64,000 nucleotides of DNA from contig JAFKAC010000096.1 of NCBI GenBank assembly GCA_025766275.1, forward strand, positions 62,001 through 126,000, given 5' to 3'. The position numbers and the translations under genes were made by a program. Below, piece by piece: positions 7,956 to 36,594 of this stretch. Each line of letters opens with the position of its first letter. The stretch's first letter is position 1. The notes under the pieces are model-generated. The model worked only from the letters and a program-made list of their open reading frames with translations, was not told where the DNA came from and did not search any database. This stretch comes from Lactarius indigo (taxonomy: Eukaryota > Basidiomycota > Agaricomycetes > Russulales > Russulaceae).

Positions 7956-7986
7956 TAACAACAGCAGGACTTTTCCAGTCGGTCAT
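7956..7986 (-). CDS. 7TM-B, first part of exon 1 (separated from the rest)
   Basis: On the minus strand, from the ATG at 7984-7986, 31 bases read M-T-D-W-K-S-P-A-V-V plus one base, the same N-terminus as the other four 7TM copies. The frame stops at the terminal repeat of P1. The continuation (T-A-E-Y and the exon 1 donor) is at 34980-34994, 27 kb away and on the plus strand, next to the far end of P2. This fits insertion of P2 into exon 1 followed by inversion of the interior. The split copy cannot encode a protein as it stands. Confidence 0.82.
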
Positions 7987-8394
7987 GTTAAGGAAGAAAC
8001 AGGACCGGCGCGACGATATGAGGGTTCAGATAGGACGGACAAAAGTAGATCCGCGTACCATGCATGAAGTGGTTTCAATATATGCAAAGCAAACCTATAA
8101 AAAAACAGAAATGTCAGTACACAGCACGAGCAAGGTGCTCAGCGCTCACTAGCGCTCACTGGCAGCGCTCAGGCCCGGAGCCCGTCCCCCTATCTAGTTG
8201 ATAGTGCCACACCTCAGTGACTTCGTTACAGTAATAGCTTCCGAATTTTGCCACACATACGCCACATGATGACATCAAGATCAGGATAAGGGCGCATCTG
8301 ATTGCCAGTATCTCACATACCGTGACATTTGATTTACAGTGCAACCCCACTAGAGTACATCAAACCAAGTCGCAAGGATGTCAAGAATCACACA
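7987..8394. promoter_or_regulatory. Divergent upstream region of 7TM-B and a conserved exon-like ORF
   Basis: The 400 bp between the 7TM ATG and the divergent 99-base open exon recur with each 7TM copy (23240-23606, 44823-45201, 51392-51790, 61675-62054). A shared pattern is a stretch reading CATATATTGAAACCACTTC on the 7TM strand, present in most copies. A divergent promoter is inferred from position; no TATA box was confirmed. Confidence 0.4.
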
Positions 8395-8493
8395 ATGGAT
8401 GAGTCGACGAGTTCTCTAACTCAAACCTCAGTCTCTTTCACTGATTGTAATGCAATTTCCGACTTGACCGTCTATGACATTATTCAAGTTGTA
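8395..8493 (+). CDS. Conserved exon-like ORF divergent from 7TM-B
   Basis: A 33-codon open stretch starts with ATG (M-D-E-S) and ends at a GTAAGT donor; the last residues resemble ADLTVYDDIV of the sister copies. Sister copies lie at 23607-23705, 44738-44822, 51296-51391 and 61582-61674, always divergent from a 7TM gene. Lengths of 99, 99, 85, 96 and 93 bp show at least one frame break. No downstream exon could be followed with confidence, so this may be the remnant of a lost gene. The function is unknown. Confidence 0.3.
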
Positions 8494-9470
8494 GTAAGTT
8501 TTTGTGAAAAACTCGGAAGTAACTTTGAAGCTGTGGGTCATCGATTACATGATTGAGAAGGCGATTGGTGAGGCCTGTGAGGTCTATGAGGCGCAACCCC
8601 GCAGGGATCCACATAATCCACTGCCACCACCGCGACCACCGCGCAATCGGGGATCGTTGATTGGGCATCGCTCTCAACACTTTCACTGCTCCATGTCATG
8701 ACCCCGCGGTCTCGATAGCTTCGTGGCGCAGCCTAGTTTCTTGCCGTGTACTGGCACTTGGTCTACGTCTCAAACATGCCACGCTGCAGGATACGGTGCG
8801 TACACTCGACTTGTATGTCCAGTCGCCTCATATCAACTTTTCCGGCCCTTCCTCATCCTGCATAAATGTCCCTTTCATGTCCGTCTTTATTCGGGCCATC
8901 CTCATCATTTATCCTTTTCTCCACATGGCCCACTCCACTGGGTTATCGCTATCACTACGCTATCACCACGCTATCACCACCGCATTTAGACCGGGCGCCG
9001 AAGCCACAATTTATACTCTTGTACGTCCCTTTTTCTTTTCTTTTCTAGCGTGTTCCTCTTTTCCTCTCGCCTTGGTCCCCGGACGATTCAATCACTTTAG
9101 CCTTCGCCTTCACTAAGTCTCGCTCGCGACGTACTCTCTCTTCCTGATTTGCTCTTGGATTGGCTACCTCTTATCTTGTCACTCCGCCTTAGCGTTCCGT
9201 TCCTGTCCCCGTTCCATTCTCCTCGCATTCTATTTCGTTAGCCCTTACAACTCCTACTCACTCCTTTCTCCCTTCTCCATATCGTTTTGATCATAGGTAC
9301 CGGGTTTCTCCATGTGCACAAAACTCCTCTTACTTACTGAATGTATCGGCGCGTCGCCTACGCCCTTTTTCTTGATCCCAGGGCGAGCCAGGTTTGATCA
9401 ATGATACCCCTATCATCTAAATTTGCAGGGCTGCCATCAATGCGCCCAAGCGTCAGACCTGGCCCCTTTC
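8494..9470 (+). repeat. Array spacer block S1, unit copy next to P1
   Basis: Related blocks lie at 23706-24513 (same orientation) and 43815-44737, 50405-51295 and 60720-61581 (opposite orientation). All are pyrimidine-rich on this strand and share runs such as TTGCCGTGTACTGGCACTTGG and CGTCGCCTACGCC. Short open frames do not keep a common reading frame among copies, so no gene is called. Confidence 0.6.
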
Positions 9471-10545
9471 TGCAGTCGGCTCCGGATCGAGGCCTGATAG
9501 GCCTGATCTGTTTCGGATTCGGCCAAACACCGGCCGTTTGCTCGCTGTCCCCCCGATCCTTACATTCACAGCTTCACTCTTGTTTTTCTTTCTTACGTGC
9601 CTTCATACCCTCCCCTGTCGCCTCCCCCTATACGTTTTCTAAAAAAAAAACCGCTCCGCCTGTCGGACTTATTGATCCAAGTCCACACATTCCATCGCTC
9701 ATATCGTTGTCATAAATCCGGTTCCAAACTAGGCTTTGTCACATATACAATGTGCGTCGCGCCCTCTTAACGAGTAGTCCATCTATTCTACAAAATTTGG
9801 ACGTCGTCAATCAACCGGTGATATCCGACAAGATCCTCCGCGACTAAGTAGCGACCTGCGATTCCCGACATGAAGTGAGGTCTCAACGTTCGGACGTTCA
9901 AGACGATTCTCGCGCAGGTACTGTCATACACTCTGCGTGCTAAGGAGGCTCTGCGCCGATATCATAGTGTATGCAGAACCCTGGGTCAGATATTGGAGTT
10001 TAAAATGATTCGAGACCTCTGGCCCATTTTTCAGGTCCCATTTTTTGTTTTGAGGCTGCCTCTGCACGTAGGGACACTGCGCAAACAACCCGGGCTGCCT
10101 TGGGTTCAGGGAGTTAATCCGCGCTATCCGTCGCGCAGACCTCCGCACGGCGCGTAACATTGTACACATGTCCGCTTGGGTCGAGTGCGCGTCGCCCCGA
10201 GTTGCTAAAGGCACGCGATTGTGCGAGATGCTCCAGAACACGGAGAAGTGGACAGACTGAACTATCGAGGGCTCTGACGCCCTAGGAGAATGGCACTAAG
10301 TTGAAAGTAGATACAGGAAGCATTTATACAGGAAAGAAGGGAAAAACAGTCTAGGAGATCGCAAAGTCAAGGCAAAGGTGATACTGTAATCCGAATCGGC
10401 CGATTCGCGGGAAAGTGTGGGCCGCACGGCCCGGGTGCGGAAAGGCTCATATTGATTTCGTGCTGTCACGGTGGCCTTGACGCGGCGAGTTGGGATCATG
10501 TCGAGTACAGTGGTAGTACAGTATACGTACTCGAGCGTATTTGAA
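9471..10545 (-). repeat. Spacer block R, copy 1
   Basis: About 1.1 kb related to 42690-43815 and 59640-60719 on the plus strand and to a diverged piece at about 48180-48740. On the minus strand it has a TATA-like TGTATAAATG at 10321-10330 followed by a segment conserved in all copies, including a GCGACGCG-rich part. Coding potential is unclear: open frames are short and differ among copies. Confidence 0.5.
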
Positions 10546-13500
10546 CCTTCTCCGTTGCTACTCTACTGTAAGGCTTGTTTCAGAAATGCTAGCATACTTA
10601 TTACTCACCCTCGACCTCACCTCAGGTCCCACTGCCCTCATATTTCCTACACCCCTCCTAACTCACTTGCTCTCGCCGCCTCTCTGTCTCATCAAGTGCC
10701 TATATTTTAATCCATCGCTCCCTCAGGCCTTGCCTCGGGCTCTTCCTCTCACTTGCTAGTAATTATGTCATCGCCGCCTCCGTCGCTTCTAAGGTAGGTG
10801 GCTCAATTGCTGACGTGACCCTGTTCGAACGGCATCACCCTCACCGTCTGCCTCTCGTATCGACACTTTTTCCCATTGTCCTCGTTATCTACTCCTTTTG
10901 TACACGCAACACACACTCTACCGTTCATTCGCCACCACATCGCTGCTCTTTTCCTGGTGCCCCGGCGTGATCCTAGTCTATGAATATTTCTCCTCCCTGG
11001 TCTACCCCTCACTAGGCCTTACTTGCCGATCTCTTTGTTCTTGCCTATTTATCGATCCTAGTGTCTCGGTATCCCCGTGGACGACGATTTCCGCGGATAG
11101 CCTGTTGGGGCCTCAGCCTCTTGTGGGGCAAATGCACGTAAGCTCATACACCGATATACCGACAAGACTACACTAAGCACTACATTTTCGGACAACCTTC
11201 AGGGTGTCAAGCATTTGTGTCAACAGTAGTTCGCCCTGGGTATTGTGTATCAAGAAGCCGAAGCAAGTGTCGTTGTTGGCACAAAATCCTGCACCTGCCT
11301 GCAAGACATACGCGACGGCCACGGACGCGACTCGGACGTGCGACGGGCTGGCGTCCAAGTTTGGTATGACTCCGCAGAAATTTGTCTAGTACAACCCCGA
11401 GGTTTATCTGCAACGACACATGTTGTCGCGTAGACCTCAAAGATGTCTGAAGACACTCCTCATCCACCCTTGTCTCATCTGAGGACGGGATAGCGTCTCC
11501 GGACGGCACATATCTCCATTACAGCAGGTACGCGTCTGTATTTCCTATGCATTTAGAAGCAGCGCTGAACCGAAGCAAGGACACGATCTTGACGTTGCAT
11601 CCCTACTTTCACTCAAAAACCATTCTCCTGGTACCCGCAGCACCTCCACATCGCCTGCACACCACCTGGCGCCTCTCCGTCCGGTGATCGATGTCCCCAT
11701 CGGCTCGACTCGTATGGTACAAGGGGAAGGGGAGAGGTGGTACTGCCACAGATTCTCGTCAAATAGATATCGCTTGATGCAAGCGTGTGCAAGAAAGCAC
11801 AGGAGATGCCGAGTTGATCAAACGCACCTGGATGTGGTGCTGCGCTGACCCGCCAGCATGGCTCGAGGCCGCGAGTTGGGGGATGTCTGGCGTGGGACTT
11901 CTGCGATTCGCCGTCAATCTCTATTGAGTCTTGTTTCAGAATACCAGTATCTCGCCCCGGATTCCCCTGCCTTCGGTTCCAAATGTCACGGAATCCACAC
12001 CTCCTATCATAACTGTTCTCGCCGTCCCTCTGTCTCAATCTTGTGCGTATTGTTCAATCCATCGCCTCAGACTCACACCCAGGCTCTCGCGTTCTGATAA
12101 TTTTGTCGACCCCTTCCTTCACCTTCGCTACCCGGTGGCTCGATTGCTGAGGTGACCCTGTCCGCATTACCCTCGCTGTCTGTCCCACGTGTCGACATTT
12201 TTCCTCGCTGTGCTCCTTGTGTAGGCTTCACCCGGCGCACTACGCCGTGCAATCATCCAGTCACTGTTTTTCCTGAGCGTGGGGCACGATCCTAGTTTCA
12301 TGTGTGTTTCTTTTTCCTGATCTTCTACTCCCCACTTACGGCTCCCGTTCTACTTACTTATACTTGCTGTCCCGGAACCAGGTGCTGTCTTCTTCCCCCC
12401 AAGATACAATCCACAACTTCTCTTGCACTTTCTCTAGCACTGCTGTCGTGTTGTTTCGTTCGTTCGTTCGTCTCTGCGTGATCCATGCCAGTCGTTCAAG
12501 TTAAGGACACTCAATATTTCTTCGCAAAACTCTTATCAATCAGTCCTGGCATTGCCGCTTTCACATGTTGGCCTCGTCCAGCGGTCTTTGTTGACTCCTG
12601 CTCCTCTCGCCCCCAAGTTATAATGCTAGTCGTTACACTCCATCCCGCGCGACTGTTGCCTTGGCAGCTTTTATCATTTTCCCTTTTCTCTCTCTCGCAT
12701 CGTTCTTCCCAATCATCTGATCTCTTCTACGGAATCTGCTCTGCCTGTCAACTCATGCGCATCCACGACGACCCATCAAAGAACGACACATCGACACATT
12801 CGTCCACCGAAGTTGCGGCGTCCCCATGGAAGTGGGCTCCTCATACGCACGTTGTGCACATAATGCGACCGGGACAATTGCGGAGCTCGGGGCAAACGCA
12901 CCAACAACTCTCGAAAGCAAACCTTCGGGCGCTTGGAGGTGTGACAAGTCTATACATGCCATTATATGGTACGTGCCACTACGTGATCAAACACCGATTT
13001 CTTCCATTTACCCACCATCCCCGATATGATGTCTAGGGTTGGGTTGCGGGTTGTACGCCATTGGCCGATGAAAAAGCTCTATCCTGCTCATATTGCGGGG
13101 CGCCTCGGATTGAACACTCTCGGTCATTCTCGTGTCACACGTCATATGTAAGTTAGTTGGTCCACTATGATTTTGCGTGACTCATTTAACAACAGTCAGA
13201 GGTAATTCGTGGACGCGCTGGGCAACGGCGCAGAGACAGATGAAGAGATGTACTGAGGGCTTAGATTGACGCTGGAACAAGATCGTGTCTACTGCATATT
13301 TGCATATCAGAGTATTTATCCACACATCTAATGGAGAGTGAATTGGCTCGTTAACGTGAAATTTCTGTCGGGTCAGAGGTGATGGTTCATGCGTGCGTAG
13401 CTCGGGAGGGTCCCTTACATTAAGGTGAAGGGGAAATCCTCTTCGAGTTGTGGGGGGCGAGGTTGGACGGAATGTGGTGCGAATCACTGTAAATGGACCA

Positions 13501-13750
13501 CTAAGTTCAAAAGTTGTCGTGACCTCAAGGGACGAGAAAGAATCTCCTTGCTGGTGTTCTCGAACTTGAATTCATAAAATATATAGTATATGTGCGGGAT
13601 ACATTAGAACAACAACACTACACGCATCTGACATCCACACCTATCCTATTTGAGGTCGAGAGCTTTTTCGATTCCTAAAAACCTAGATAGAAATTGAATG
13701 CGTCCTATTTTCAAGGCATTATGTGCGACGATAGGTCGCCTTAGTCTCAC
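10546..13750 (+). repeat. Array spacer block S2, inverted copy
   Basis: These 3.2 kb match, in reverse, the stretches downstream of 7TM-B, C and D (36595-39074, 49117-50400, 53465-59640 apart from insertions). The block contains an internal duplication: about 10790-11000 and 12128-12320 both run GTGGCTC, TTGCTGA, GTGACCCTGT and GATCCTAGT in the same order. Except for a LysM-like island near 11300, no gene is supported. Confidence 0.55.
11230..11440 (+). pseudogene. LysM-domain gene fragment, with an in-frame stop
   Basis: A short open stretch reads PAPACKTYATATDATRTCDG then LASKFGMTPQKFV, a stop (TAG at 11387-11389), and YNPEV. This follows the LysM pattern of a Cys, a Thr-Cys pair, a hydrophobic-Ala pair, Phe-Gly, and Asn-Pro. 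LysM domains bind chitin or peptidoglycan oligomers. About 165 bp including this piece are absent from the matching place in units B and D (38710-38760 and 59040-59080), where the flanks meet directly. No signal peptide or second LysM is visible, so it is a remnant. Confidence 0.5.
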
Positions 13751-16700
13751 CTACGCTACTCGATTTTCCAAGCCATTCGTCGATTTCTCCTCGTGTCTTG
13801 GCGGTGCCAGAAAATCCATTTCAAACATATGCCCGTCCATTGTACCGCCGCTCGTCCCCACTGCGAGGGAACCTTGGCCTGGCCGGGGTACGAAGGTGCC
13901 AATCGGTGACTGTCTCACTGGAAATCCTCTACTCATATGTACGTCGGATTCTTTGTGGACATAGTCCGACAGTCCGCGGTACACCCGTGAAGCACCTATG
14001 GTCATAATTATCGCTGAAGAATGGAAAAACAATCAGCGAATTCGCATGATTGTCTCGGGACGAGACACCAACTTTTAGGGAGTTGAAACATCTACGATAT
14101 CGGGCCCGTCAGTCACTTATTCGGAATATTTCCTTCACGTACGATGTTCATTGGATCTGTGAAGATACTCTTTTAGTGAATACGTGATCTCGTCGTATGA
14201 AAGAAATGCACTACACACTATTCAGGTTTAACAGAGTGGAAACCTTTGGAGCTCGTATCAGCCACCTCGGTCATATCCATTTTTGGAAACGTACTACGAT
14301 GGGTGCCTCGGCTATAGCAACAATTATTATCCAAATCAAGCCCTGTCGTCATGATCAGCCTAGAACATCATCGCAGTGCATGCTGTGGTATCCGAGATGA
14401 GAACATACTGACCTGGGTATACAAGAGCCACCAGATGCAGCCTTTCTGGCGGGCATTTTCCCAGCGCAAGAGCCCCATGAGCATGAGTGCAAGAAGCACC
14501 AATTCAGCAACGAACGAGACAAGAACGTTGGTTCTGGCTTCAGCTGCATTTGTGACTCTGCAGGAGGCTCCGCCCAAGCTTTCGTTCCAAGCTCCACGAA
14601 TAATAATTGTAACTGATCCCGGGATCCCGCCGGGTCACATGTTTGAAATATGCAGAAGGCCAAATGAAGAAAGAACATACTACGAATGATGGTACCAGCG
14701 TCGACGAGCCACGCAGCGGCTGCGATTGATATGGCGATCTTGTTTAGCCCCCATATTGCTGCACTGAGAGTACTGTATCAGCGAGGTGCAGAGAGGAGAT
14801 AGAAAATCGGGTCTCTACATGCGCAGCACGACCAGGGCATCGGCACAAGCTAACGAGAGAAGTGAAAACAACTAGTACATGGCCCCCATATTAGCATGTA
14901 ATCAATGGAATGGCCTATGATTATCTCACGAAGACAAAGATGACTATGGCCTGGGTAGAATTTCAGTCTCGTCATCTGGCTCAATGTTACGCTCCACCGG
15001 CGTCAGTCCGACTTGGACTTAAGAGAGGCGTAATCGACTTAGCGAAAGACAGGCAAATGGGGATCACGTGTCAACCCAATGCGAGCTGAACAGGGGCACT
15101 CGGGCACACGCTGCAGCTAAAGGTGAAGAAGGAGTATCCTATGAATGGATACAAGCGGAAGCACACTTAGCCCAAGACTAAGGCAGATGGAAGACGAGTC
15201 AAGTGGTGGATTGAAGAAGACCAAGATGGGGACTCTTGGTCTTCCGAGTCAACTACTTATACAAATACGCGCGGGCTTTAAAGCGCCGCTGGAACAATCG
15301 GTGACCAATAGCGTAACTAGCTCGAACCCTAGTACAGCTATCCTAGGAATGAGTCATACGTGAGTCACAATCACATGCGAACTACTACGCTGACTGATAC
15401 GATGTAAGAGTCCATGACTAATGCTGATACCGGACCGTAGTCATAACCGGTCATGAGTCGTGTGTGATGAGTCGTTAAGTCCGTACCGTAACATCACCCC
15501 CTTTTCAAGAGTGAGGCCCACCTCACTAGTCCGCTACCGATTCCTGTCTCATTTTCTCCGCCTCATCCTCCATTCGTGCTAATATGTTAGCACGCTCGAG
15601 CCGATAAAGACTGTCCTTTTTGTCATCAACCACCAGCTGCCTTTCCAACTGTAGCTGCCGAATCCTCTTCTCCAATTGGTCCTCGGCAAACGCAAACTGC
15701 CGGAACCGGCGCAGTTCTTGGGTGAGAGTGACATCCCCGATGCGCATAAGCAGCAGGTCAGTGGGGTGTCGATCGCGGAGCATGAAATACTCCTCGTGTG
15801 GGATAAATGCGCGATTGTTCTTGGGGAGATGGGGAGTGGCGTAAAGTGGTTTACCGTAAAGGAGGCCCGACCCCGGAGCTAATCCGAGTACGAAGGGGTC
15901 TCCTCCTCGGATAACCTGTACGTGGGAGGCTTGTACCGTCGGTCCGTTGGGGAGTTTGATCGGGAACGGAATGTAATCGGGTCCTCGATTGACCCGGAAC
16001 CCTTCAGGGACGACGGCCCTGGTTGCGGGGTCTCGTTCGCCCATTGGTGTATAACGAGCCGCTTGTGCCACGGCAACTCGTCCTCGGTGTAGAGGCCCCC
16101 CCGCTGCGTCGACGAGGAAGGGAGTGGCGGCTGGATCTTCAGCGTAGAATTCATGGTTAAGGAATGCGTGCCTGATGGGGTAGTGGTCTCTAAGCTCGTC
16201 TTCATCCTCATCCTCGTCCAATACTCCTTCCGCTCCTTCATCATTCGGCGTCGGCAGGCGGCGATATGCAGTTGCTCCCGCTGCCACTGCGCCGCCGTCT
16301 CCTTCCATTCTTGTTCGTACTTCTCTATGGCGTTGGGTGGCTTCACCGCGCGGGACAGCTGCTTGAAGCCGAAAGAGTTCGTCTTCCGTGAGGAAGACTT
16401 CGGGCTCACCGGTGTCGGGGTTTGTGAGGGCGTACATTGGCGGAGGTACTGGTTGAGTTGTTGCTGGATCGTCGTCGACAACTCCCTGTAGGGGCAAAGG
16501 GAATCGTTGCAGTGTCTGGCGCAGTTCTTCACCAGTGATAGGGCCGTCTTCCTCATGCTGCATGGAGGGACGGCTTCCTCTCGCAGTTCTAACGACTGCG
16601 GTGTCGTCGGCGGAGTCGGGGTCGACAAGCGTGGTGGAGGAGTCGTTGACGAGGGTAGAGAGGAGTGCAAGCTGGTCATCGCGTCGAGTAGAGGACATGG

Positions 16701-19700
16701 AATGAATGGGAGATGGGGACTTATCACGACAGGAGGTTCCCCTTATATGTGTTTCTCTGTCGGGGTTAGAATGTTTGAAGTCCCGAACGGCTTCATCGGC
16801 AAATACGTCATCCTTATCTATCCATTGATTGTCGGAGTCCGGATAACCCTTCCATTTGACAAGGTACTGGAGTCGACGTCTTCTGCCGAACCGCCGAGAG
16901 TCTAGAATCTTCTCGACCTCGTATTCTTCTTCGTTATCAACCAAATCTGGTGGTGGGCGCTGATAGTTTGGTCCGTGCGTGGGTGTTTCACGATAAGGTG
17001 TGAGAAGATCTATGTGGAAGACATCGTGGATGCTCCACTGCGTGGGAAGTTCGAGGCGATAGTTGACAGGGGACATCACCTGGATGACCTTAAATGGTCC
17101 GTGGCGCTTTGCGGCTAGTTTTGCGGTTGGTTGATGGGTGCGTAGGTGGCGTCCTTCTAGCCACACGAGGTCTCCTTCCTTGAACTTGGGCGTATCTTTA
17201 TGCTTGACCCATGACTTCTGCGCCCGGAGCATGCAAGAGAGGGCGCGTTGTCGTGCTTGTTTGAATTGGTCTAATCTTAGTGACACCTGTGGGATCGGGG
17301 AAGGTCTATCGGTCCAATCAGCACGCGGGTTGAACCCGGATAGGAGGAAGAAGGGGGACTCCCGCGTGGTTTCGTTAGGCCAGTTGTTATGCGTGAATTC
17401 CGCCATAGGCAGATAGCGGACCCAGTCATCTTGTCGTTCATTTACCCAGAAGCGGAGGTATTGTTCTAGCCATTGGTTGGTTCGTTCTGATTGGCCGTCG
17501 GTTCTGGGGTGATAAGCGGTTGAGATATTTTGACTGATGCCAAGGATTTTACATATCTCTCGCATAAACTTGGATGCGAAGCGGGGATCGCGATCACTGA
17601 TAACGCGCGAGGGGAGTCCGAATCGTGCGAAGACGTGAGAAACATACAGGGCGGCCGTCCCCTCTGCCGTTATCTCTTCGTTGCAGGGGATAAAAACAGC
17701 GGCCTTAGTACAATCGTGATCTGTTACCGTTAGAATAGAGTCGTACCCCCGGGAGATGGGGAGTTTGGTGATAAAGTCCACTGCGATAGTCTCGAATGGC
17801 AGGGCTTCTGGTTTTGGGTAGATAGGTTGTAGAGGTGCCCTGATGGGACGAAGGTTGACTTTGTGTCGTTGGCATTCTGCGCAGCCTTTGACGTAGTCCG
17901 TGACATCATTCCTCATCTGCGGCCACCAATAATGCCGCTCAGTGAGCTGAAGAGTTCGTTTAATACCGGGGTGACCGTAGACAGGAGAGTCATGGTGAGC
18001 GGCGATGATGGTGCGTTTATCGTGGATGCCACCGGTGACTACTCGACGTCCATCCTTGTACCACGTTCCTTCAATATCTTTTAGCTTGTGAGCGTCGACC
18101 CAGGGTTTTAACTTAGCTGTATCTTGCTCGTAAATTGGGTGTTCTGGAATCATTTCAACCGGTAAGATCTCGGGTCTCCAATGTGGATGTCGTGGTTCTT
18201 CCAACGTGGTGGCGCGTACAAAGACGCTTTCTGGTAACACGATTATCCCTTCGTTATCGTTTTCTCCTTGATCGTAGTCTGGTCTCCGTGACAACGCGTC
18301 GGCGCGTCCGTTAGAAGTCCCCTTAATATGATGAATCTCAAAGTCGTATTCCGAGAGTTCAAGTACTTCCCTAGCCACGCGTCTGCTAATCTTCTGGGGT
18401 GATTTCCAATATTGCAGATTGAGGTGGTCGGAGAATACTTTAATTTTGTGAGGGGAACCTGCTAGAAGGGGTCTCCAGTGACGGAAGGCCTTGACGATCG
18501 CCAAAAGTTCAAGGTCGTAAATGTCGTAGTTCCGCTCGGCTTCATTGAGGGTGGATGAATAGTAGCCGATGGGGTGTCGTTTGCCGTCCGCTTTGCGTTG
18601 TAGGAGAACGGCTCCGGTCGCAAATCCTGATGCGTCGACCTCTAGTTCGAATTGCTGAGTGAGGTCCGGGTGTGCGAGGACAGGTTCACTAGTGACAAGG
18701 GTTTTGAGGTCTTGGAACGCCTTCTCTTCTTCGGTTCCCCAATGCCACTCAGTGTCTTTTCGTGTGAGTTTGTTAAGAGGTCGTGCTTTGGTTGCGAATC
18801 CTCGTATGAAGGGTCGGTAAAAATTGCAAAAACCCAGAAAAGAGCGGACGTCCTTAACTTTGGTTGGCGTAGGCCAGTCTTTGATGCCCGAAATTTTGAC
18901 GGGGTCCATGCGTGTCACCCCCTTTTCAAGGATTACCCCCAGGTAATCCATGCGCGGGGAGTGGAAGAGGCATTTCTCAAGTTTATAATACAGGTCGTGC
19001 TCCGCGGATACGCGGAGGACGTCTTTAACTGCTTCGATGTGGTCGGGTAAGGAGTGATTAAGTCCCGTGGCGATACCGATGTCGTCCATGTAGACCCTAA
19101 TAGTTGTGCCGCGTTTTTCGTGTTTCGCGATGATGTCCCTGAAGATGAAGTTCATCATGGTCTGGAACGTCGCCGGGGAATTGGTTAAGCCGAAAAACAT
19201 CACCGTTGGTTCGAATAGTCCATAGCGTGTTTTGAACGCCGCTTTCTCCTCGTCTCCTTCTTTGATACGTATGTTGTTGTAGCCCCATCTAACGTCGAGC
19301 TTTGTATAGATGTGGGCGTTGCTGAGATCAGTGATAAGGTCGGAAATGAGGGGGAGTGGGTATTGATTGCGGATGGTGACCGCGTTGATTCTTCGGTAGT
19401 CCTGAACGGGCCGTAATTTACCGTCCTTCTTTTTGATGAAGAAGAAGGACGACGCGTATGGGGATTTAGAGGGTCGTATGTACCCCTTTTTCAGTTGTTC
19501 GTCGATCCACTCGCGTAATTTCTTGTCTTCTTCTTGAGTCATAGGGTATATCTTACAGTCTATAGCGTCGGCTGTTCCGGGTTTGAATTCGATAGCGTGG
19601 TCCCAGGGCCTGCTGGGTGGAAACCTGTCCGATGCTTCTTCACTGAAGAGACGTTCGAATTCTCGATACTCGGGGGGTAACTCAGCTTTAGTGGTGTATT

Positions 19701-24513: not shown

Positions 24514-24541
24514 CATCAGCAATTTGACAGAAAAGTTTTCG
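24514..24541 (+). repeat. Terminal inverted repeat of P2, companion-gene end
   Basis: Starts CATCAGCAATTTGACAG and pairs with 34952-34979. The next 270 bp are AT-rich subterminal sequence with repeated AAAACC runs and no gene. Confidence 0.87.
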
Positions 24542-24814: not shown

Positions 24815-27206
24815 CTAATTCCGAGACTTTGTAGGGCTAGATGAAAGATAAAAGTCAGCACGATATGCTGACAATAGCGATTCATCAACACGATTCTCTT
24901 CATCATAGGCCACAAAATTCAGAGCTTGTGCCCAGCGAGACTCGCTGACTTGGCTGAGGATCCTATCAAAGTCTTTCATCGAGTTCCAGGTGGTTCGGTG
25001 ATTGAAATCACCAGGTGCGTTGAATCCACCTGTCAAGTGGGCTCTCATCGCACGCTCAACCTGTAAACTTGTCAGATAATGGGCCTGGGATGAGTTGCTG
25101 CAAATAGTGATGCCAACACACCGCGGTTAAAATCATCACATAAAGCCCTTTTGGCGGGCTCTTTGGTCCAAGAGATGGACGGAGAACTGACCTTGATGCA
25201 AAGCTTAAGTATGTCTCGGCAACTGGGAGGATGAACTGTGAGCGCAAAAACCCATCGGGTTTCTAACATGCGTCATGAGCATGAGCAACAATCTCCAACA
25301 GCAAAAATAAACTCACCTTGTAGTTTGGGTCATCCTTCCGAAGCTTGCTGGACTTTGGGACAGGGTTTTCGTAGTAAGCTGGTCCACCTGACCGCAACGC
25401 CCAGTGGACATAATCCCTGATCTTGTCTGGTTGGTCCTTGAACTCAGAACGCTCGAAAAATGTCTTCACTAGCAGAAGGACATCACTTGCGAGCTTCGAC
25501 CTTCGAGTCTTCATTCGGTCATAGGCCTATCAGGAAACATTAGTTAGTCAACCGCACAAGGATCATGTGACATACCGCCTTAACGATGCCATCTTGCGGG
25601 CTCAGCGTGTATGAAATATTTGTGAATGAGAGGTCAAACACAACCTGCACAGCCTCAACAAGGGCACCGGACTCCCGCACCCAATCAGTAAATGGGTGGT
25701 CAGAAATATAAAGAGCATGGGACAGTGTTGGAAGAAAGATGCGAGTCCAACGTGAATCGTCGAGGCACTGACGAGTGATGTCGGTATGTGCCTCGGTAAG
25801 GGACTTGCTGGGTTCGTGTTGCTTATATGATGCGTCCTTCTTGACTGTTGCTTTCGTTGCTTTTGATTTGGGTATCTAGTTGATACGTTTGGGGTCAAAT
25901 GAGTCGGAACAACCAAGTAAAAAAATATATTGACTCACTTTCCGTGTGGCTTGCAATCTACCTGGGCGGATGTCTGCTTTCATTCCGATCTTCACAAGCT
26001 GGTAAAATAAGAATCATGAGAATTCTGATGAGATGACATGCAAGGAATACCTCATTCACGCGAGGTGGCTTGTCCGAGACCAGAGATTGAATTTCCGCAA
26101 CCGCTGGGCACGTTTCTTCGAGGTCACTGTCACCAAGGCCCCCAAGCTCAAACGGGTCAGTGACACCTGGCTGCTGGACCAGAGTGGGAATGGGAACAGG
26201 GTTTGGTACAGCGAGAGCTTGCAGTCGAAGACCAGAGTTCGCGTATTTCTTGCGACGAAGGTCTTGTGCCATGAACCTGCTTGTTTCACAATGGGTCAGA
26301 GTTATGCAAAGGTGCAGTGATTGTGCACGTCTCACTTTCCAATATCGTGCTTTGAATGGGTCTTCTCAGTGTGTTCGGCGCCACGTAAGTCTTCCATCCT
26401 TGTTATAAGTTCTTGACGGGCCGCACCCTTGACGCGTTTGTTACCCTGAGACTGTTGGCAGTATGAGTGACGAACCGACAGATCTATATATGACGTTAAA
26501 CACTGGCCTTCTTTTGTGTTTTGGTGGCCTTGTCGGATTCGGACGAAGAGTCGTCAGAGTTGAAGCCATTGTCGGCCTCCCTCAAGTCGAAGCACTCATC
26601 GTCACTCTCTACATCAATGTGGCGCCGCTTACGAATTGCGGTAGATAAGCGTTGCGGGTGTAATATGGGCAGGTCATCCTCCTCGTGTTCTTCCATTAAA
26701 TTCAACTGTGTGAGGTGTTCCTTTGCCATCTGGACCTCGTGCAGCTTCTCCTTGAGGGCCTTCGCCCCAGCTTGACGGTCGGCCTCAATCTGTTCCTTGC
26801 TGCGTCGGGGTTTTGGCTGACCTGCAGGGTGAACGTTACGGCCTGGTCGACTTGGAAGTGTGCGAGTAGCCACAGCGGCCTTTACTTGTGCGCTTCGTCT
26901 TTCTCCTTTCGGGGCTACTCTATTGTCAGCGGTTTGACTGTCATCGTAGCCAAAACCCACACCTTGTCTTACTTTTCCCGGACGTCCAGTAGCCTTTTTG
27001 TTAGCCACCACTGTGCCGAGACCTTTGTCAACGTCGACATCTGAAGAATGATGAGCGCTGGCAACAGTGGGCTTTTGGCCTCACTTACCTGGCCCCTTAG
27101 TTGAAGGGTGCTCGTCACTTGTGGGAGTAAGGGTGTTGCCGCTGTTGGTAGTGGTGTCAGGTACAGACTTTGTTGTGACACTTCGGGTTCGACGGGTGGT
27201 TGGCAT
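24815..27206 (-). CDS. Plavaka-associated companion protein, 651 residues (copy in P2)
   Basis: Exons on the minus strand mirror those of P1: 27089-27206, 26502-27040, 26336-26451, 26051-26276, 25939-25998, 25576-25875, 25317-25526, 25122-25262 and 24815-25060. The protein is the same as in P1. It has a basic low-complexity N-terminal third with an acidic serine patch and a C-terminal region resembling a DUF6532-type domain (tentative). Both copies intact means the gene has not been drifting since the two insertions. Confidence 0.72.
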
Positions 27207-28338
27207 TGATGTGACACGGTATGCGCAGGAGAGAAGGACAAGGGAACGTGAAAGACAGGCTAAGGGGAAAAGACTGAGTAGGCAAGACGGGTCAAATATA
27301 TCTATAAGTCCTACCTAGGAGCCCCAAAACCGTGGCAATGGAGTCCAAATTGGACGGTTCCGGCAATGGAAACACGGCGGAATGATAGATAGGTCCTATT
27401 AAGGTATAGTCCACCACATGAAACACGAAGACTGAGGGCAGGGATGCAATAGTTAGCGTATGGCCAAGTCCTGTAGCATAACAAGGGGACCATCAAGAAA
27501 GTATTGATCTAATAAATGGCAGATCGGTGGGACGGGGAGCTTACATGAAACGAATCTACCACTCTGCTGTGCATCAGTCCATAAGGGGTTTGTGACGTTG
27601 TGATATGACGACGAGGCATTGAGCCTGTGCTGGGAACGGCCATCACAATGACCCCTGGGTTGTGTATCAGGCAGTTGGTCGTGTTGTAGCTCTCGTGTCT
27701 CATGGGAGGTAAGGGAAGTGTAGAATGTGTATGCGTAGTATATGAATTCTTGAAGGTATTCCAAGGAGATCCTGGAGCTAAGAGAGTGACGGAGGACAGT
27801 AAGTACTTCGCAACTTAGAGAATGAGAGGGTTGACACATGCACATACCGTCGGGGAAGGTTATAATACATCCATTAATGTCTAGTTGTTGAGGATCCAGC
27901 AGAGCGACGTTGGTTGACGTTGGTGCTGAAGCACCCAACGTTGGATGTGCGGACCACATCGTCTGCCAATTCTACGGTATGACATGCTAACCTGGTGGCA
28001 GCAGGAGGGGAGGGCGAGGTAATAGTTGTCGTGGGCGCACCTAGCATTGGCAGTTTGCCCCCTATTGTTGTCGTCGGTGGTGCACGCGGCCACATCGGTA
28101 GTACGATACCTGTGTCCCTTCTGTGAGATTGTGTATCTCTTGGTGACTTGCGTGATACCACTGGCACACTAGGCTTGTTGAGGCACGGAAATCAAATAAA
28201 AAAAAAGGTAGGCGCACTGTGGATATACGTTTGATCGTGCCCAGTTTTCGGCGCCCATGTCGACATCCCGGCCGCCACGGTCTGTACTATACTCAGGGAA
28301 AAACCAGTCCAGGGGAACCTGTGAGGACGCCGGGTCAG
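27207..28338 (-). other. Uncharacterised captured or spacer sequence (in P2)
   Basis: Complement of 4131-5262. No family was recognised; the same exon-like stretch occurs at about 28217-28318 on the minus strand. Confidence 0.35.
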
Positions 28339-29278
28339 AGGAAGCTGAAACACGGAAACGTCAAAGGTGACTTGACTTGGTCTAAGGCCGTCTTCACTAG
28401 CCGAATCGATGGCGGGTATGCGTTCAATGGTACCAAATATTTTGGGTGCGGCACGACAGCCCTGGGTTATAGCTACAAGTCCATGAATTAGCAATAATTA
28501 ATCAAGGCAGAGAAAAGTAACTCATACCCTGCGCGTCGGGAGCCATAAGAGCGAGGGAAAAGGAACCGATAAGAACTGCCAAGATGACGTTGATGATCAG
28601 GCCAGTGTCGGCATGACCTTGGTTGATGAGCGTAGTGCCAAAACTGAACGCTAGTATATGCGGTGTGCAAGTCAATAACACGCGGTTGGATTATAAGAGA
28701 AAGAAAGGGAGGGCGAAAAACTGACCGAGAGCGTAAGTGGCATAGATGGCAAAGAAAAAGCTGGAGAGACCGATGCCATGGCAGATCGCTGCCCGGCCAT
28801 CCAGAGAGGGCCTTATGGACAGGAATATCGTATAAGGATGCGAGCGCACTTTGGGTGCCAAAAGCTTGAGCAGTGCGGATCGTGGACACAGCTTCTTCTG
28901 CAAGGGTACCACCCTCAGCAACGTGTTTGGACAAAACGAGAGGAAACACGAACGGGTGTCGGTCTGAATGCGGGTGGTGATCTCACCAGCGCCAACTTTA
29001 TCAAAGAAGGCAATATCCTGGCGGAGGACTGCTTTGAGATAGCGTTCGCCGAATTTGCTTAGCGGCGACCTCAGCGGTATAGACCCAGATACACATGTAG
29101 GTGTACGTAGAAACGAACAAGCCCACGCCTGTGTGGACATGGACAATACCAATTAGTAATTCAGAACCAGAGTAGCGTATCAGCGAAGTGATGAGTGACG
29201 AACCGATATACATCAGGTAAGACGCATCTTGAGCAGCAACGTGACGGAAGTTCTTTGCGGGTTGGTCGGCTCTAGTTG

Positions 29279-29990
29279 TTGACCCTGGGTCATTAAGATC
29301 AAGATTTTTGAGGGCAATGGAGAAGTCAACGAAGATGAAAGAACGACATAGGGAAGAGAAACGAACCAAGGCAGTGATTCACCGGTCCAAGCGTCCGTCC
29401 GACACCAACGAGAGAATGACGACGAAGTCGAGGCGACAAATAAAACGCGCGGGTTGGGCGAAGCGCTAGACGTCGAGGTCGTCAGTCATCGGTATGAAAG
29501 AGCGAGAGGTGAGAAAGAACACGAACTTGAACAGCAATTCCAACCTTCGAAAACACGGGCTTGCACCAACGAACAGCGAGCACAGAACGGGGAGTCAAGA
29601 AAACAAGCACAAGTTCACAGACGGAGAAAAGAGATGGGGCAGAGTGGAAGGGGAAGAAATCGCGCGAACAGATTGCGAGATGGCTCGCCAAGGCCAAGGC
29701 TGCAGGACGTCGTTAGTTATGAGTGTGAAAAAGACGAGATGGACGAGAGACGGACCTGAATAGCCGTTCGACGATCAAAGCACCTGTCTGCGCCATCAGC
29801 CCAACGAATACATGACAGAACGCCAAGAAACGAGAACGAGTTGCAGAAGACAAGGAGTGTGGGGGATGGGAGAGCTGGGAGCGGTCGTAGAGGAAAATAC
29901 GATGCGAGAACGTCTCGCGAATGCCTTGACATCGACGTTGTCAGTTATAAATATGAAAGCAGAAGGCAGAAGGAAGCGACGAACCTAGTT
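29279..29990 (-). other. Captured sequence of unknown origin between ABC pieces (in P2)
   Basis: Complement of 2479-3190; it contains the C/T difference between the copies (29557). No gene was recognised. Confidence 0.4.
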
Positions 29991-30343
29991 CTAAGGGAGG
30001 TCAAAGTAGAGGTCGGCACCTGGGAACTGGGGCTTGATGACATCTCCCCAGAGCCAGTACATCGGGGTGCCGTAGGTGATGTCAGACGAGTCGGTCGGAC
30101 CAGTGCCACCGGTGAGGGGGCCGTGAATTCGGCTTCGGAACCGACGATAAGGGCCCCAGAGTCCCCACCTCTGGAGAATGGACCGTAGTTGTTGTCGTAG
30201 AGGTGAACTGCGGCTTCGATGGAATCGAAGGTGCCCACGAGGCCATAGTGGCGCTGATGAGACTTGAACCCAGAAAGGCGACCAATCGTGGTGAGCGTGG
30301 CGTGACCACGTTTGATCACGAATCGCACGGGGTCGCCCTTCAC
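29991..30343 (-). pseudogene. GDSG-type serine-protease-like fragment (in P2)
   Basis: Complement of 2126-2478 with the same GDSG block and the same fusion point with the ABC exon at about 30344. Confidence 0.6.
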
Positions 30344-30948
30344 AGGCTCATCAGAGGCTATGAGGGGAGGGTCAGCAGAACAGCTTGTGAAGAACCTGGG
30401 GAAGGGAATTCCAGGCACACCTGAGCAGCACCCGCGGCAATCGCAGCGACGAGGCCGATAGCATTGAGAATGGGCTCAAAGTGGGTGGAGAAGCTGGGAG
30501 GGGAGCTGATGAGAAAACGGTATGAATGGAAGGAAGAAATAATACCGGAAGAGACCAAAGAATGATACGGGCTTGGAAGTGTCTTCAATCGGCGCAGAGA
30601 CACGAAGCTCAGAGGAGGTACGTTTCTCGGCCGAAGACAATGAAGCCGAGTCCAACTGCTTTGGCCTGAGCCATGAGAAACGAGTGGAGGGCTTGTCGTG
30701 CTCGTTATTTTCCACTGCCGACATGAGGAGCACGATGAAGGGGGCGGAAAAAAGAAGGGAGAGGAACACTGAGTGGAATCATATGGCTTGTGTGTATTTC
30801 TATCTTGCTCACGAGAAAAGTTGCCGTTGCCATACACCGCTTACGGTATCCGGAGGAACATCTGCCGTTCAAGGCTGAAGAAAAAATGTGGATCTTCGGT
30901 GGTGAGCCGACACACCAGGATACGTTCGCGATTAACCTGAAAGAGATA

Positions 30949-31419
30949 TATAAAAGGGATGAAAAAGAGAGGAGGCGACGTACTCTGTGGTAGGGCGATG
31001 ATCTCGTCCGCCGCCAAGTCCTGAACAGCTTGCGCGATGTCGAGCTGAAGAAATGTGGGTCTTCGGTGGTGAGCCCACATGCCAAGATACGTTCGTGATT
31101 CACCTGAAAGAACTGTATAAAAAGAGACAGTAACTTCAAGTTGACGACGCCATGGGCGCTCTCGAAGAAATGGGTCGGGAAGCGAGAAGTTCTTCGGGTC
31201 TGTAGCCATTCTGGGGAATAAACTGAGCGGTATCAGAGGCATATTCTCCGTCGTAGTAAGAGGGAAGGCAAGGGAGGACAGCAGGGGAAGGAAAGGAATA
31301 CGCACCGAGTAACCACGTTGTCGCTTATATTTCTTGGAGTCCTCCTCGATCTGACGGTCTATCATGTCTGAGAAAGCTCTCTCTTCAGCTTCTCGAGTAT
31401 TGGAGGCATCATTTTCCAC
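30949..31419 (-). pseudogene. Captured G-alpha-like fragment (in P2)
   Basis: Complement of 1050-1520. N-terminal helix, post-P-loop and helical-domain pieces in order, with the P-loop exon lost. It lies 210 bp from the transposase ATG, read divergently. Confidence 0.45.
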
Positions 31420-31628
31420 TGTAAGAGGAGGGAAGGGAGGAGAAAGTGTCAGAAAGGAAGGAGTAACGGAGTAACTGATCGATTGCTCAAAGACGACGGA
31501 CGCCCCATCAGTTTCGCAGTTCTGACTAAGACGGGAATTCCCGTGTTCAACTTCAATGTTTCAACATTTTCAACGATCAACGGTTTTAAGCGAGTCCACC
31601 CAACCTCTGCCTACATACCCTATGCGCC
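31420..31628. promoter_or_regulatory. Short divergent region between captured genes and transposase (P2)
   Basis: 209 bp separate the captured pieces (minus) from the transposase ATG (plus). It must hold the transposase promoter unless that lies inside the captured DNA. No clear TATA box is visible. Confidence 0.4.
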
Positions 31629-34600
31629 ATGTCTTTTTTTTGTTCCTTTTGTAGAGATAATTTCCGCTCACAGGGAGGCTTGGCGAAGCATGTGAACTCG
31701 AAGCACGGCAAGAACAGTACATTTGCAGGGATGGCCGCAGCGTTACAGTCGCACACATTCATACGCCATCCCCACCTCTCAGGTATGTCACAAACCCGTG
31801 CATGATGACAAGGTGCTGAGTCCTTATGAGCCTGGCCATGTTCATCTGATGGCAGATTCCTCAGAGATCTCTCACAACCACCGACATCGGAATTGTTGGA
31901 GTCGCGCAGCAATCCTTGGCTCCCTTTCAGTGACAGGCTGGCATACGAATGGGCGCACTACCACTATATACATCTTCAGTCTTCTGCAGGCGATATTCAG
32001 CGGGGCCTTGATCTCTGGAGAGCAACGGTTATGATGTATCAGACTGACCACAGCAGCTGCGATGGAGTCCCATGGAAGAGTGCCGCGGAAATGTATGGGA
32101 CGATCGACTCAATATCGGCTGGTGGAGTTGGCTGGACAACTTACCAATTATCATACAGCGGGCCACAACCAACCGGGGCTGCTCCCCAGTGGATGCAAGA
32201 GACTTATGAGCTAAACGTACGGGACGTCCTTTCTGTCTTCAAGGAGCAACTAGCCTCGAAGGAGTTCGATGGCGAGTTTGAATACACGCCATATGAAGAG
32301 TACGATAAGAATGGTTCTCGCGTATATTCTAACCTCATGTCAGGTAACTGGGCGTTTCGTGAGGCGGTATGTGACTATATTCCATATTTTATTCACCTGA
32401 TGTATCGCTCTAGGACACGATCTCTCAGGACAAGACGACGCATGGAGCGATGTTTGTTCCAATTGTTGCTGGCAGTGACAAGACCACGGTATCAGTTGCA
32501 ACCGGACATCAAGAGTATCACCCTGTGTATGCGTCGCTTGGCAACATCACCAATACCGCCCGGCGTGGGCATGGAAGTGGTGTAGTGCCTGTCGCCTTCC
32601 TTCCAATCCCAACAAGTACGTTTCATTTATCCGTGCTCCTGTCTTTGTTGTTGAGGGGTGGACTCTTTCAAGCAAGCAAACGCCAGCGAACAAAAACATC
32701 GTTTCAGATGTTTTGTCGGCAACTTTACCACAGCTGTCTCGAATTGGTCTTCGCACCGCTCAAGCCCTATATGACGGAGCCGAAAGTCATGAAATGCCCC
32801 GATGGGCACTTTCGCCGCGTGATTTTTGGTCTTGGGCCATACATCGCAGACTATCCTGAACAAGTCTGGCTTGCCGGTACTGTATCTAAATGGTGTCCAA
32901 AGTAAGTGCGGGGATCTCTTTACAAGCGTCACTGACCCTTTCTTATGTAAGATGTGATGCATTGCCAGCTGACCTTGACGGCTCAGGGAGTCATCAACGC
33001 TCACACACGAAAACTGACCTCCTTATCAAGATGTTTGACCCGACTGTCCTCTGGGACGATTTTGGTCTTCGGCACAACATTGTGGTGCGTATTATGTCTT
33101 CGCTCCGACACTGTGGTCTGATAACGCACCTGGCAGCCATTCACATATTCATTTCCACGCGCCGACATCCATGAACTGCTCGCACCGGATCTCCTCCACC
33201 AGCTGATCAAAGGAGTATTCAAGGACCACCTCGTTGAATGGGTGGTAGAGTATCTACACCTGGCACATAGAGAGAAGGTAGCGTTGGAAATCATCGAAGA
33301 TGTTGATCACCGGTACGTCTTTTCTTCCTTACTTCACGGCTCATAAATCATCTGACAATAGGATCTCGGCCGTCCCCCCGTTCCCTGGTCTTCGCCGGTT
33401 CAAAGACGGGCGTGATTACCAGCAGTGGACGGGCGATGACTCAAAAGCATTGATGAAGGTATGTGCACGCCGTGATATGATATTGGACTCAGATCAGTCA
33501 TACTAACCATACTGTTAAAGGTTTTTCTTGCCGCAATTGCTGGCTACATCCCATCTGTGATGGTCCGCTGCATTGCAGCGTTCATGGATGCATGTTACAT
33601 AGCCCGCCGAAATGCCATTAACTCAACATCTCTTGAACACCTTCGAGACTCTGTTGAGACGTTTCATCAACTACGTGCTGTCTTCATTGAGGTTGGGGTT
33701 CGTACAAGCCTTTCTCTTCCACGCCAGCATGCTTTGAAGCATTTTCACCGTGCCATACACCTCTTTGGCTCCCCTAATGGACTCTGCTCATCGATTACGG
33801 AATCAAAGCACATTCGAGCAGTCAAAGAACCTTGGCGACGATCCAATCGATATCACGCTCTCGCTCAGATGCTCAAGACCAACTCACGCATGGACAAGAT
33901 GGCAATACTACATCAGCGCCTTGAGGACAGTGGGGTGCTGCGGGGACTTGCGTTCCCATCTGAGCTCGGTACAAACAACGCAACTAATGTGCCAATAGAT
34001 TCAGAGGAACTTGAAGATGAAGATGAGGGAGTCGTTCCAGGTAAATCGCAGAACGCGTCCGACTTTGATGTTCAGCTCGCATCCAGAATTCGTGCGTATA
34101 CATCGTTTTAGAGCGGCCCCATCATTCACACATTGAACTCTCAGAGTGTGGTTACCCGTCTCAGCTCTATGCTCTTGCAACGTACATCCAACAGCCCAAT
34201 TTTCCACTCGTCTTCACCCAGTTCCTCTACAAGTTCTCCCACCCAGACGAACAGATTGCTCCGTCAAGAATTGAGGAATGCCCTGCCTTTGAGGGTGCGA
34301 TCAAGGTCCATCACTCGGCCATCGCCACGTTCTATGCACCTAGTGACCTTTCTGGATCAGGTGGCCTGCGGCGTGAGCGAATCCGATCAACTCCCTACTT
34401 CTTTGGCCACCCTCGTCGCGACACCGTTTTTGTTGTCATCGATGATTCTCAGGCCGGTATGGAGGCCATGGAAATTGGGCGGGTATTGCTCTTCTTCTCA
34501 TTCGAGTACAGGCGAAAGAATTTCTCATGCGCGTTAATCAATTGGTTCGTCCATACTGATGAACGTGACCCTGACACAGGGATGTGGGTCGTGAAGCAAG

Positions 34601-34659
34601 AGCTCGATCGCCATGGCCAGCCCACTCTTGAAGTCATTCATGTTGATTCTATTGCTTGA
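31629..34659 (+). CDS. Plavaka-type transposase, with a premature stop (copy in P2)
   Basis: Nine exons: 31629-31782, 31831-32366, 32414-32615, 32673-32901, 32952-33084, 33137-33312, 33362-33458, 33521-34040 and 34112-34659. They total 2,595 bp, giving 864 residues before a TGA at 34657-34659. The N-terminus has a C2H2 finger (Cys5, Cys8, His21, His26). Family blocks follow in the usual order, such as MFVPIVAGSDKTTVSVATGH, CPDGHFRRVIFGLGPYIADY, LLAPDLLHQLIKGVFKDHLV, and GSPNGLCSSITESKHIRAVK (the last one as L-F-G-S in context). After the TGA the same frame stays open to a TAG at 34798-34800 with 46 more family-like residues (AAHLLPVYG onward), so the stop is a recent change of a CGA arginine codon. 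The product may be defective or only shortened. Confidence 0.88.
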
Positions 34660-34951
34660 GCAGCACACCTCCTGCCCGTTTATGGCGACTCACGGGTACC
34701 AGAGAACTTTCATTACTACCACGCTTTGGACACTTACCACTCATTTTTTGTTAACCATTATGTTGATCACCACGCACACGAGTTTATTGGTAGGGATTAG
34801 TAGTTTCTATTCAAGTTTTTAAGGTAGTTAGCGATGTTCAGGACCTCCCATATGAATATTTAGGCCGAGCGAGTAGGTTTCCGAGTGTCTGGGTTTCAAG
34901 TTTCCGGAAACTGGGAAAACGTCTGAAAACGACAAAAACGAACGAAACAAC

Positions 34952-34979
34952 GGAAACTTTTTTGTCAAATTGCTGATGT
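34952..34979 (-). repeat. Terminal inverted repeat of P2, transposase end
   Basis: The complement starts CATCAGCAATTTGACAAAAA; it differs from the other end mainly by A for G at position 17 and in the last few bases. Confidence 0.87.
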
Positions 34980-36594
34980 ACTGCAGAATATAGTGAGTCA
35001 GCCGTGCTTCCTACATTTCTAACTATTTACGTTCGCCTTACAGTCGCCCTCCTCAAGGTTTACCACGCAGTATGGGGAGTTCTCATGTGAGCGCTGTCGT
35101 TCTCGGCCCCCTCTAACTAAAAATACTAAATTTCTTCTCATACAAGTTGGGAGTTCGTCGTGAACTTCGGATTCGAATTTTCGGTCTTCACTGGAAAGCG
35201 AAAGTTTCGCTCATCATTTTTGGTACGTTGCATGCAGCTCAAGCAGGAATGCGAGGTGATCAACTCAGGCTGGTACAATATAGCTTTATTTGGGGGCCCG
35301 GTGGTGCGCTCTTGTCAGCGTCATTACGGTACTCGTGGGACTCGACCCAGTCAACCGGGTCAACTGCCAGGTACCTCGGCGCCTCGTCGTGTTGGGCCAG
35401 ATCGCGAGACTGAAATTCTACACAGGCCGTAGTCGTCTTTATCTTCGTGAGATTATAGGCCATTTCCTCGACTACATTCTAATACTGGGGCCATGTACTA
35501 GCTGTTTTCATATCTCTCGTTAGCTTGTGCCGAGGCCCTGGTCGTGCTGCGCATGTAGAAACCTGATTTTCTATCTCCTCTCTACACGTCACTGAAACAA
35601 CACTCTCAGTGCAGCAATATGGGGGCTGAACAAGATCGTCATATCAATCGCTGCCGCTGTATGGCTCGCCGATGCTGGTGCCCTGATTCGCAGTATGTTC
35701 ATTTCTTCATTTGGCCTTCCGGATATTTCACACATGTGACCCGGGTTTGCGCGATTAGGTACAGTCATTGTTCGTGGAACTTGGAGCGAAATACAGGGCG
35801 AAGGCTTTTGCAGAATCACGAATACAGCTGAAACCAGAACCAACATTCTTTTCTCGTTCGTCACTGAATTGGTGCTTCTTGCGCTCATGCTCACGGGGCT
35901 CTTGCGCTGGGAAAATGCCCGCCAGAAAGGCGGCATCTGGTGGCTCCTGTATACCCAGGTCAGTATGTTCTCATCTCAGATACCACCGCACGCACCGCGA
36001 TGATGTTCTAGGCTGACCACGACGACAGGGCTTGGCGTGGATGATAATTGTCGCCGCGGCCGAGGCACCCATCGTAGTACGTTTTCCAAAAATGGATATG
36101 ATCCAGGTGACTGATACGAGCTCGTCAGGTATTCATTCTGTTGAACCTGAATGGTATGTAGTGTATTTCTTACATACGACGGGATCACGTATTCATCAAA
36201 AGATTATTTTCGCAGATCCCATGAACCTCGTACGTGATGAAGGAAATATTGCGAACGACGGACTGACGGACCAGATATCATAGATGTTTCAACTCCCTAA
36301 AAGTTGGTGTCTCGTCCCAAGAGAGTCATGCGAATTCGCTGATTGTTTTTCCATTCTTCAGCGATAATTATGACCATAGGTGCTTCACGGGTGTACCGTG
36401 GACTGTCGGATTATGTCCACAAAGAATCCGACGCACATATGAGTAGAGGGTTTCCAGTGAGACAGTCAACAATTGGCACCTTTGTACCCCGGGCAGGTCG
36501 AGGTTCCCTCGCAGTGGGGACAAGCGGTACACTGGACGGGCATATGTTTGAAATGGACTTTCTGGCACCGCCGAGAGGCACCAAGAGAAATTGA
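34980..36594 (+). CDS. 7TM-B, main part (exon 1 remainder to exon 13)
   Basis: It begins at the P2 end with CTGCAGAATATA, the rest of exon 1 (T-A-E-Y), then a GTGAGT donor. Exons 2-13 correspond one for one to copy D and stay open with GT-AG introns to a TGA at 36592-36594. The last residues differ (APPRGTKRN) because of a small indel near 36573. The start codon is now 27 kb away on the other strand, so this copy is disrupted by the transposon, not by decay. Seven hydrophobic stretches and the conserved cytoplasmic tail are present. Confidence 0.8.

Follow-up and report, generated by a model that had tools for sequence, protein, structure and literature searches.

In the basidiomycete Lactarius indigo, a 16.6 kb segment of a tandem gene array lies inverted between two oppositely oriented copies, here called P1 and P2, of a transposon that fits PlavakaB, while a partner contig in the same assembly carries the uninverted order. 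The segment lies in a window of 64,000 nucleotides (GenBank assembly GCA_025766275.1, contig JAFKAC010000096.1) that corresponds to C288:62001-126000, so that window position 1 is C288:62001; positions without a contig name are those of the window. The assembly comprises 90.3 Mb in 291 contigs and, since C288 has a near-collinear partner in C90:436-574 kb (~93-98% identity over those segments near the inversion that were compared), it behaves at the sequence level as two haplotigs from one individual. The paired haplotigs and the Plavaka element together suggest a dikaryotic agaricomycete. The cause that we favour is a local hop of the transposon followed by a homologous crossover between the two copies, to which we assign a probability of roughly 0.58. 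This account presupposes a correct assembly; the figure and the weights given to the two principal alternatives are judgements and were not computed.

Exchanged target duplications at the breakpoints

The inversion is delimited by the following features:

1..7955, minus strand: P1, PlavakaB transposon, ends CATCAG/CTGATG; the whole copy is C288:59491-69955 (10,465 bp), its last 2,510 bp lying left of the window
7956..24513, minus strand: inverted segment of 16,558 bp; haplotig C90 has it collinear in the opposite orientation, save for insertions in either haplotig
7956..7957: TA beside P1, half of the P2-site target duplication, displaced by the inversion; a single TA is present at the C90 empty site
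24512..24513: TT immediately left of P2 (AA when read on the opposite strand), half of the P1-site target duplication, displaced by the inversion; its partner AA is at C288:59489-59490
24514..34978, plus strand: P2, PlavakaB transposon, 10,465 bp, ends CATCAG...CTGATG, with Plavaka transposase
34979..34980: TA bordering P2 on the right, the half of its target duplication that has stayed in place

Positions 1-7955 are complementary to 24514-32468 and, when the comparison was extended past the left window edge, P1 and P2 aligned over 10,466 gapless bases (10,465 of the element and 1 of the flank) with 3 mismatches (99.97% identity). As assembled and read in element orientation, the 2-bp flanks of P1 are TA on the left and TT on the right, and those of P2 are TT on the left and TA on the right. 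Exchanging the inner flanks, i.e., undoing the inversion, yields TA/TA and TT/TT. Taken as its reverse complement, the sequence from 7956 onward has ...GCTGTTGTTA at its end; to the right of P2, the flank starts at 34979 with TACTGCAGAATAT. The two halves joined on one shared TA give GTTGTTACTGCAGAATAT. The joined sequence occurs without a break at 14 positions on C288 (80-90% identity) and in the allele on C90 (97.7% identity over 300 bases), which agrees with the claim of an earlier note on this DNA that the left flank of the P2 insertion site now sits beside P1 on the minus strand. The same note correctly had the right flank still in place, but its start is at 34979, one base from the 34980 given there. 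The note had also named a mismatch between the flank beyond the window's left edge and the sequence before 24514 as evidence against it. No such mismatch occurred: the left flank of P1 and the reverse complement of the sequence before 24514 match on a shared AA, and the sequence so joined is found intact at 10 positions on C288 (74-89% identity) and at one paralogous position on C90.

With P removed and both C288 and C90 searched, the swapped joins were spanned by 11 of 16 alignments at the AA site and 16 of 18 at the TA site, compared to 0 of 29 (P1) and 0 of 28 (P2) for the joins as assembled; the non-spanning alignments include each half matching itself. Given these counts, we rejected chance similarity as the source of the pattern. 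The orientation of the array units is in accord: units matched right of C90:460 kb are all on the minus strand, as are the matching C288 units except for two between P1 and P2, which are on the plus strand; the earlier note likewise had 7TM-A and all spacer blocks between P1 and P2 running opposite to units B-E.

The joins also bear on reversed-ends transposition, in which the ends of two separate elements are used and insert at a new target. Such transposition is reported to make inversions in maize Ac/Ds, and impala in Fusarium has been cited for non-standard transposition (PMC8225341). However, according to that account, these events are marked by a newly made target duplication, and deletions or duplications are expected when the two copies are at separate sites (Delprat et al., PMC2775673), whereas both flank pairs here rejoin on old 2-bp duplications without loss or gain. 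Since there is no new duplication and no loss at the joins, reversed-ends transposition was set aside as the main account, and we regard it as very improbable.

Uninverted order in the partner haplotig

On C90, the left neighbour of the inversion (C288:57500-59489) is found as C90:469364-471349 (95% identity) and is followed by an insertion present only in C90. Next come the reverse complements of C288:86509-84795 and 76984-75548 as C90:505531-508805 (98% and 93%), a second C90-only insertion, and the reverse complement of C288:75549-69956 as C90:530335-535940 (94.7%), after which the right neighbour, C288:96980 onward, continues from C90:535940 (98.4%). Comparison of the two contigs thus confirmed that C90 carries the segment 7956-24513 reversed between the same neighbours, with the exception of a Gypsy-type element described below, and that its order is the ancestral, P-free one. 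A break in collinearity beyond C288:75549 against C90:519001-530334 proved to be only apparent, as the second insertion (21.5 kb) accounts for it. The flip of 7956-24513 between inverted transposon copies, as the earlier note proposed it, therefore holds at 16,558 bp, with the ancestral order supplied independently by C90.

A search with P found no match on C90, and P is present at neither insertion site there. At the TA site (C90:535940), C90 is unbroken and has a single target copy; at the AA site (C90:471349-471360), it reads GTGAGAAGGCGTAGGCG across the insertion point, likewise with a single target copy. An inversion in C90 with C288 ancestral was rejected, because single-copy targets and paralog-supported flank pairs occur in C90 and not in C288.

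Of the two C90-only insertions, the first (C90:471361-505530, 34,170 bp) has 8-bp duplications, CGTAGGCG, and similar inverted ends, and lies ~11 bp from the insertion point of P1 on C288. The second (C90:508806-530334, 21,529 bp) has ends CATCAGGG...CCCTGATG and an AA duplication, which probably makes it a further PlavakaB-like element of much greater size; C288:143367-152812 matches a portion of it.

Fate of the interrupted array gene

The TA site falls within exon 1 of an array gene, the two parts of which are now separated:

7956..7986, minus strand: beginning of exon 1 of the split gene, from the ATG (7986-7984) to the TA, where it is interrupted
34979..34992, plus strand: remaining part of exon 1, then GTGAGT; the exon end is placed by this donor-like site

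The rejoined TA-site allele reads MTDWKSPAVVTAEY, and paralog DNA is alike there. Judging from these readings, P2 interrupted exon 1 of a putative array gene and the inversion put its start 27 kb from the remainder; at that distance, excision of either P copy would be unable to rejoin the pieces. In the earlier note the join was taken to be exon 1 of a 7TM gene, as in the other copies. It is indeed unbroken in the paralogs, but a Pfam search of ten single unspliced frames of the window, several of them from array gene units, matched no 7TM family, which neither confirms nor refutes that name.

The transposon and its dispersed copies

Within P2, profile searches gave the following matches:

31830..32902, plus strand: coding pieces of a Plavaka transposase, split over two overlapping frames that match positions 1-99 (E 4.5e-25) and 102-242 (E 2.8e-56) of the PF18759 profile
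28694..29152, minus strand (opposite the transposase): short piece like the membrane region of an ABC transporter, PF00664 E 1.1e-5, 25.7 of 28 bits, below the curated cut-off

Both PF18759 matches exceed the Pfam cut-off, and the CATCAG...CTGATG ends of P form an imperfect terminal repeat over ~28 bp. PlavakaB is defined by CATCA..TGATG ends and a target duplication of 2 or 3 bp (PMC12730594); the transposase profile, ends, and 2-bp duplication of P all fit this sublineage, to which P is assigned by these three features. The ABC-transporter-like piece is possibly a captured gene fragment. No match to TET/JBP was found in the subset of P frames that was scanned.

At least eight further copies of P occur elsewhere in the genome at ≥99% identity over a 7,955-base query (27 candidates, all scored), and the CATCAG...CTGATG ends are present in P1, P2, and all eight. 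These eight copies served as controls for the flanks. Seven have identical 2-bp flanks (TG, TA, AG, CC, AA, TG, and TC), and chance agreement of two random dinucleotides on C288 is ~6%; mismatched flanks as the norm for the family were rejected on this count. The eighth copy, on contig C223, has AG/CA, but its two flanks adjoin in 8 other places (93-97% identity), which speaks against its being another exchanged copy; in the one of these places that was read (on C112), it appears as a plain insertion whose imperfect duplication has three surplus bases. The copies on C215 and C245 have a common right flank, and the former is a plain insertion into a multi-copy repeat, of which three repeat copies were read. 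In the latter (C245:334210-368596), sequence left of P is 96% identical to contig C46 over 2 kb, and on the right the 2 kb tested do not differ from C215; this stretch also occurs in C116, with a slightly lower score. This end of C245 is probably chimeric, i.e., a contig run through P into foreign sequence, and the matched flanks of its copy consequently mean little, leaving six good controls.

Origin of the inversion

When the first 7,955 bases were compared, 17 substitutions and one 6-bp difference set P1 and P2 together apart from both C215 and C223; private positions numbered 17 in C223, 13 in C215, two in P1, and none in P2. This interior comparison took in C215 and C223, 2 of the 8 other copies; the match lengths of the other six (7,948-7,949 vs. 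the 7,955 of the query) suggest that they are also without the 6 bp. Because of the differences that they have in common from C215 and C223, P1 and P2 are sister copies, and their sequences mark them as recent ones.

In the account that we favour, two copies of one PlavakaB element would have been inserted 16.6 kb apart in opposite orientation on the same haplotype, one at an AA site in an array spacer and the other in exon 1 of an array gene, at a TA site. The sister relationship of P1 and P2 makes it most likely that one was derived from the other via a local hop. A homologous crossover between them would then have inverted everything between the crossover points, although we infer both the agent and the order of events; the crossover would have exchanged the inner flanks, so that each copy has one target duplication from each site. 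For the transposon Galileo in Drosophila, ectopic recombination is recognized by copies in opposite orientation, by an exchange of duplications, by targets that are single in the uninverted chromosome, and by chimerism of the copies (PMC2775673). The first three are present here, the single targets being those of C90.

Several observations weigh against this account. That P1 and P2 are two unrelated insertions is unlikely, given their sequences. As for the chimerism expected of ectopic recombination, only 3 of 10,465 positions differ between the two copies, which, being almost identical, put this mark beyond judging; near-identity is what hybrid element insertion predicts. All three differences are CA in P1 and CG in P2. 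Two of the three could be polarised and both had changed in P1, the third being outside the stretch compared. If older than the event, such differences would be split by a crossover falling between them. A change from CG to CA would be expected from deamination of methylated C, and sequencing errors at methylated sites would produce the same pattern. In addition, C90 has an insertion of its own 11 bases from the AA site, which limits the view of the allelic empty site to 11 bases of inner flank; beyond these, the evidence for the AA-site join comes from paralogs. Lastly, the inversion could be an artefact of assembly, as considered below.

In hybrid element insertion, the ends of the same P copy on two sister chromatids would have been jointly transposed to a target 16.6 kb away, a single event that makes the second copy, inverts the segment, and exchanges the target duplications. 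Besides needing one event and not two, it would account for the near-identity of P1 and P2 and their common departures from C215 and C223, i.e., the 17 substitutions and the 6-bp difference, and its outcome has been called "strikingly similar" to that of ectopic recombination except for identical copies (Delprat et al., PMC2775673). However, we found no description of hybrid insertion by Plavaka in the literature searched, of which some sources were accessible in part. Near-identical pairs are also expected from local hops or from gene conversion between nearby copies, and a crossover between 10-kb inverted repeats 16.6 kb apart requires no special chemistry. Because P1 and P2 are sister copies, a hop with a crossover and a hybrid insertion leave the same scar. 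The near-identity leans toward hybrid insertion more than the earlier note allowed: its single crossover explains the inversion and breakpoints that we find, but the crossover as agent is not proven, as hybrid insertion would leave the same sequence. We consider hybrid insertion an unlikely but serious alternative. In that tentative case, a single step between sister chromatids would have let PlavakaB generate the second copy together with the inversion, the element acting as an active rearranger and not by passive homology only.

An assembly artefact, which is a serious concern here, would mean that the true haplotype is uninverted with matched flanks and that the assembler was misrouted through near-identical inverted repeats. 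The repeats are indeed 10.5 kb long and 99.97% identical, and the copy on the probably chimeric contig C245 indicates that assembly can go wrong at P. Nevertheless, a flip of this kind requires two complementary errors, with both breakpoints wrong together. Where tested, the flanks of the other seven dispersed copies were free of such a conflict, the comparison with an empty site covering C215 and C223 only. P1 and P2 differ at three positions spaced by no more than 4.9 kb, a distance that accurate reads of this length could bridge to distinguish the copies. We judge such an artefact to be doubtful, a little more so than hybrid insertion, and retain the local hop followed by a crossover as the favoured cause.

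Other features of the locus

One further transposon occupies the inverted segment:

14985..22794, minus strand: Gypsy-type long terminal repeat (LTR) retrotransposon with chromodomain, bordered by the 5-bp duplication CTCAA (14980-14984 and 22795-22799); C90 lacks the element at the corresponding place

Two more copies of this element, at 4016-11825 and 157392-165201 of C288, are 99.8-99.9% identical to the window copy. Each of the three has its own 5-bp duplication, and all are on C288. For a 5.2 kb part of the element, the best match elsewhere in the genome was 92-93% identical among the 22 of 4476 candidates that were scored. A local burst within one gene array is odd.

A plus-strand open frame of 383 amino acids (aa) at 41104-42252 has a hAT dimerisation domain by Pfam and represents a further transposon within the array, and a 586-aa open frame on the plus strand at 55722-57482 gave no match in a Pfam search. 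Farther along, one stretch is covered by three contigs (C288:168-175 kb, C90:566-574 kb, and C229:503-511 kb), with C229 scoring the same as C90 at many places; one of the three may be redundant over this stretch.

Comparison with known systems

Inversion of DNA flanked by transposons is a well-known process, and the case described here is unusually complete and not of a new kind. In this complete natural example, an inversion within a tandem gene array is bounded by two DNA transposons, and the partner haplotig has both sites free of P; the case indicates that a young PlavakaB family can create structural differences between haplotypes. It also illustrates that an inversion can fix an insertion mutation, because excision no longer restores the gene. 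In the literature searched, where most subscription papers lay outside the scope and other sources were available in part, no inversion flanked by Plavaka elements came to light.

PlavakaB elements of Agaricomycotina resemble P in their CATCA..TGATG ends, 2-bp target duplication, and Plavaka transposase, although the accessible part of that account describes no rearrangements (PMC12730594). Inversions made by alternative transposition of maize Ac/Ds are likewise bounded by DNA transposon copies or ends but come with a newly made target duplication (PMC8225341), whereas only two old ones, exchanged, are found in L. indigo. Among basidiomycetes, transposon copies in protoclones of Marasmius oreades are associated with structural variants, among them an inversion at a hAT pair as well as deletions ascribed to non-allelic recombination (PMC9674265). 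In that inversion, however, one of two head-to-tail hAT copies was inverted and the middle was lost, and the accessible text describes no exchanged duplications. The Galileo inversion 2z3 of Drosophila buzzatii (Delprat et al., 2009, PMC2775673) has, as here, oppositely oriented cut-and-paste copies at both breakpoints, exchanged target duplications, and single-copy targets in the uninverted chromosome. Galileo differs in belonging to the P superfamily, in its 7-bp duplications, and in having demonstrably chimeric copies, whereas the L. indigo inversion involves PlavakaB, 2-bp duplications, and near-identical sister copies, spans 16.6 kb only, and is seen in one genome.

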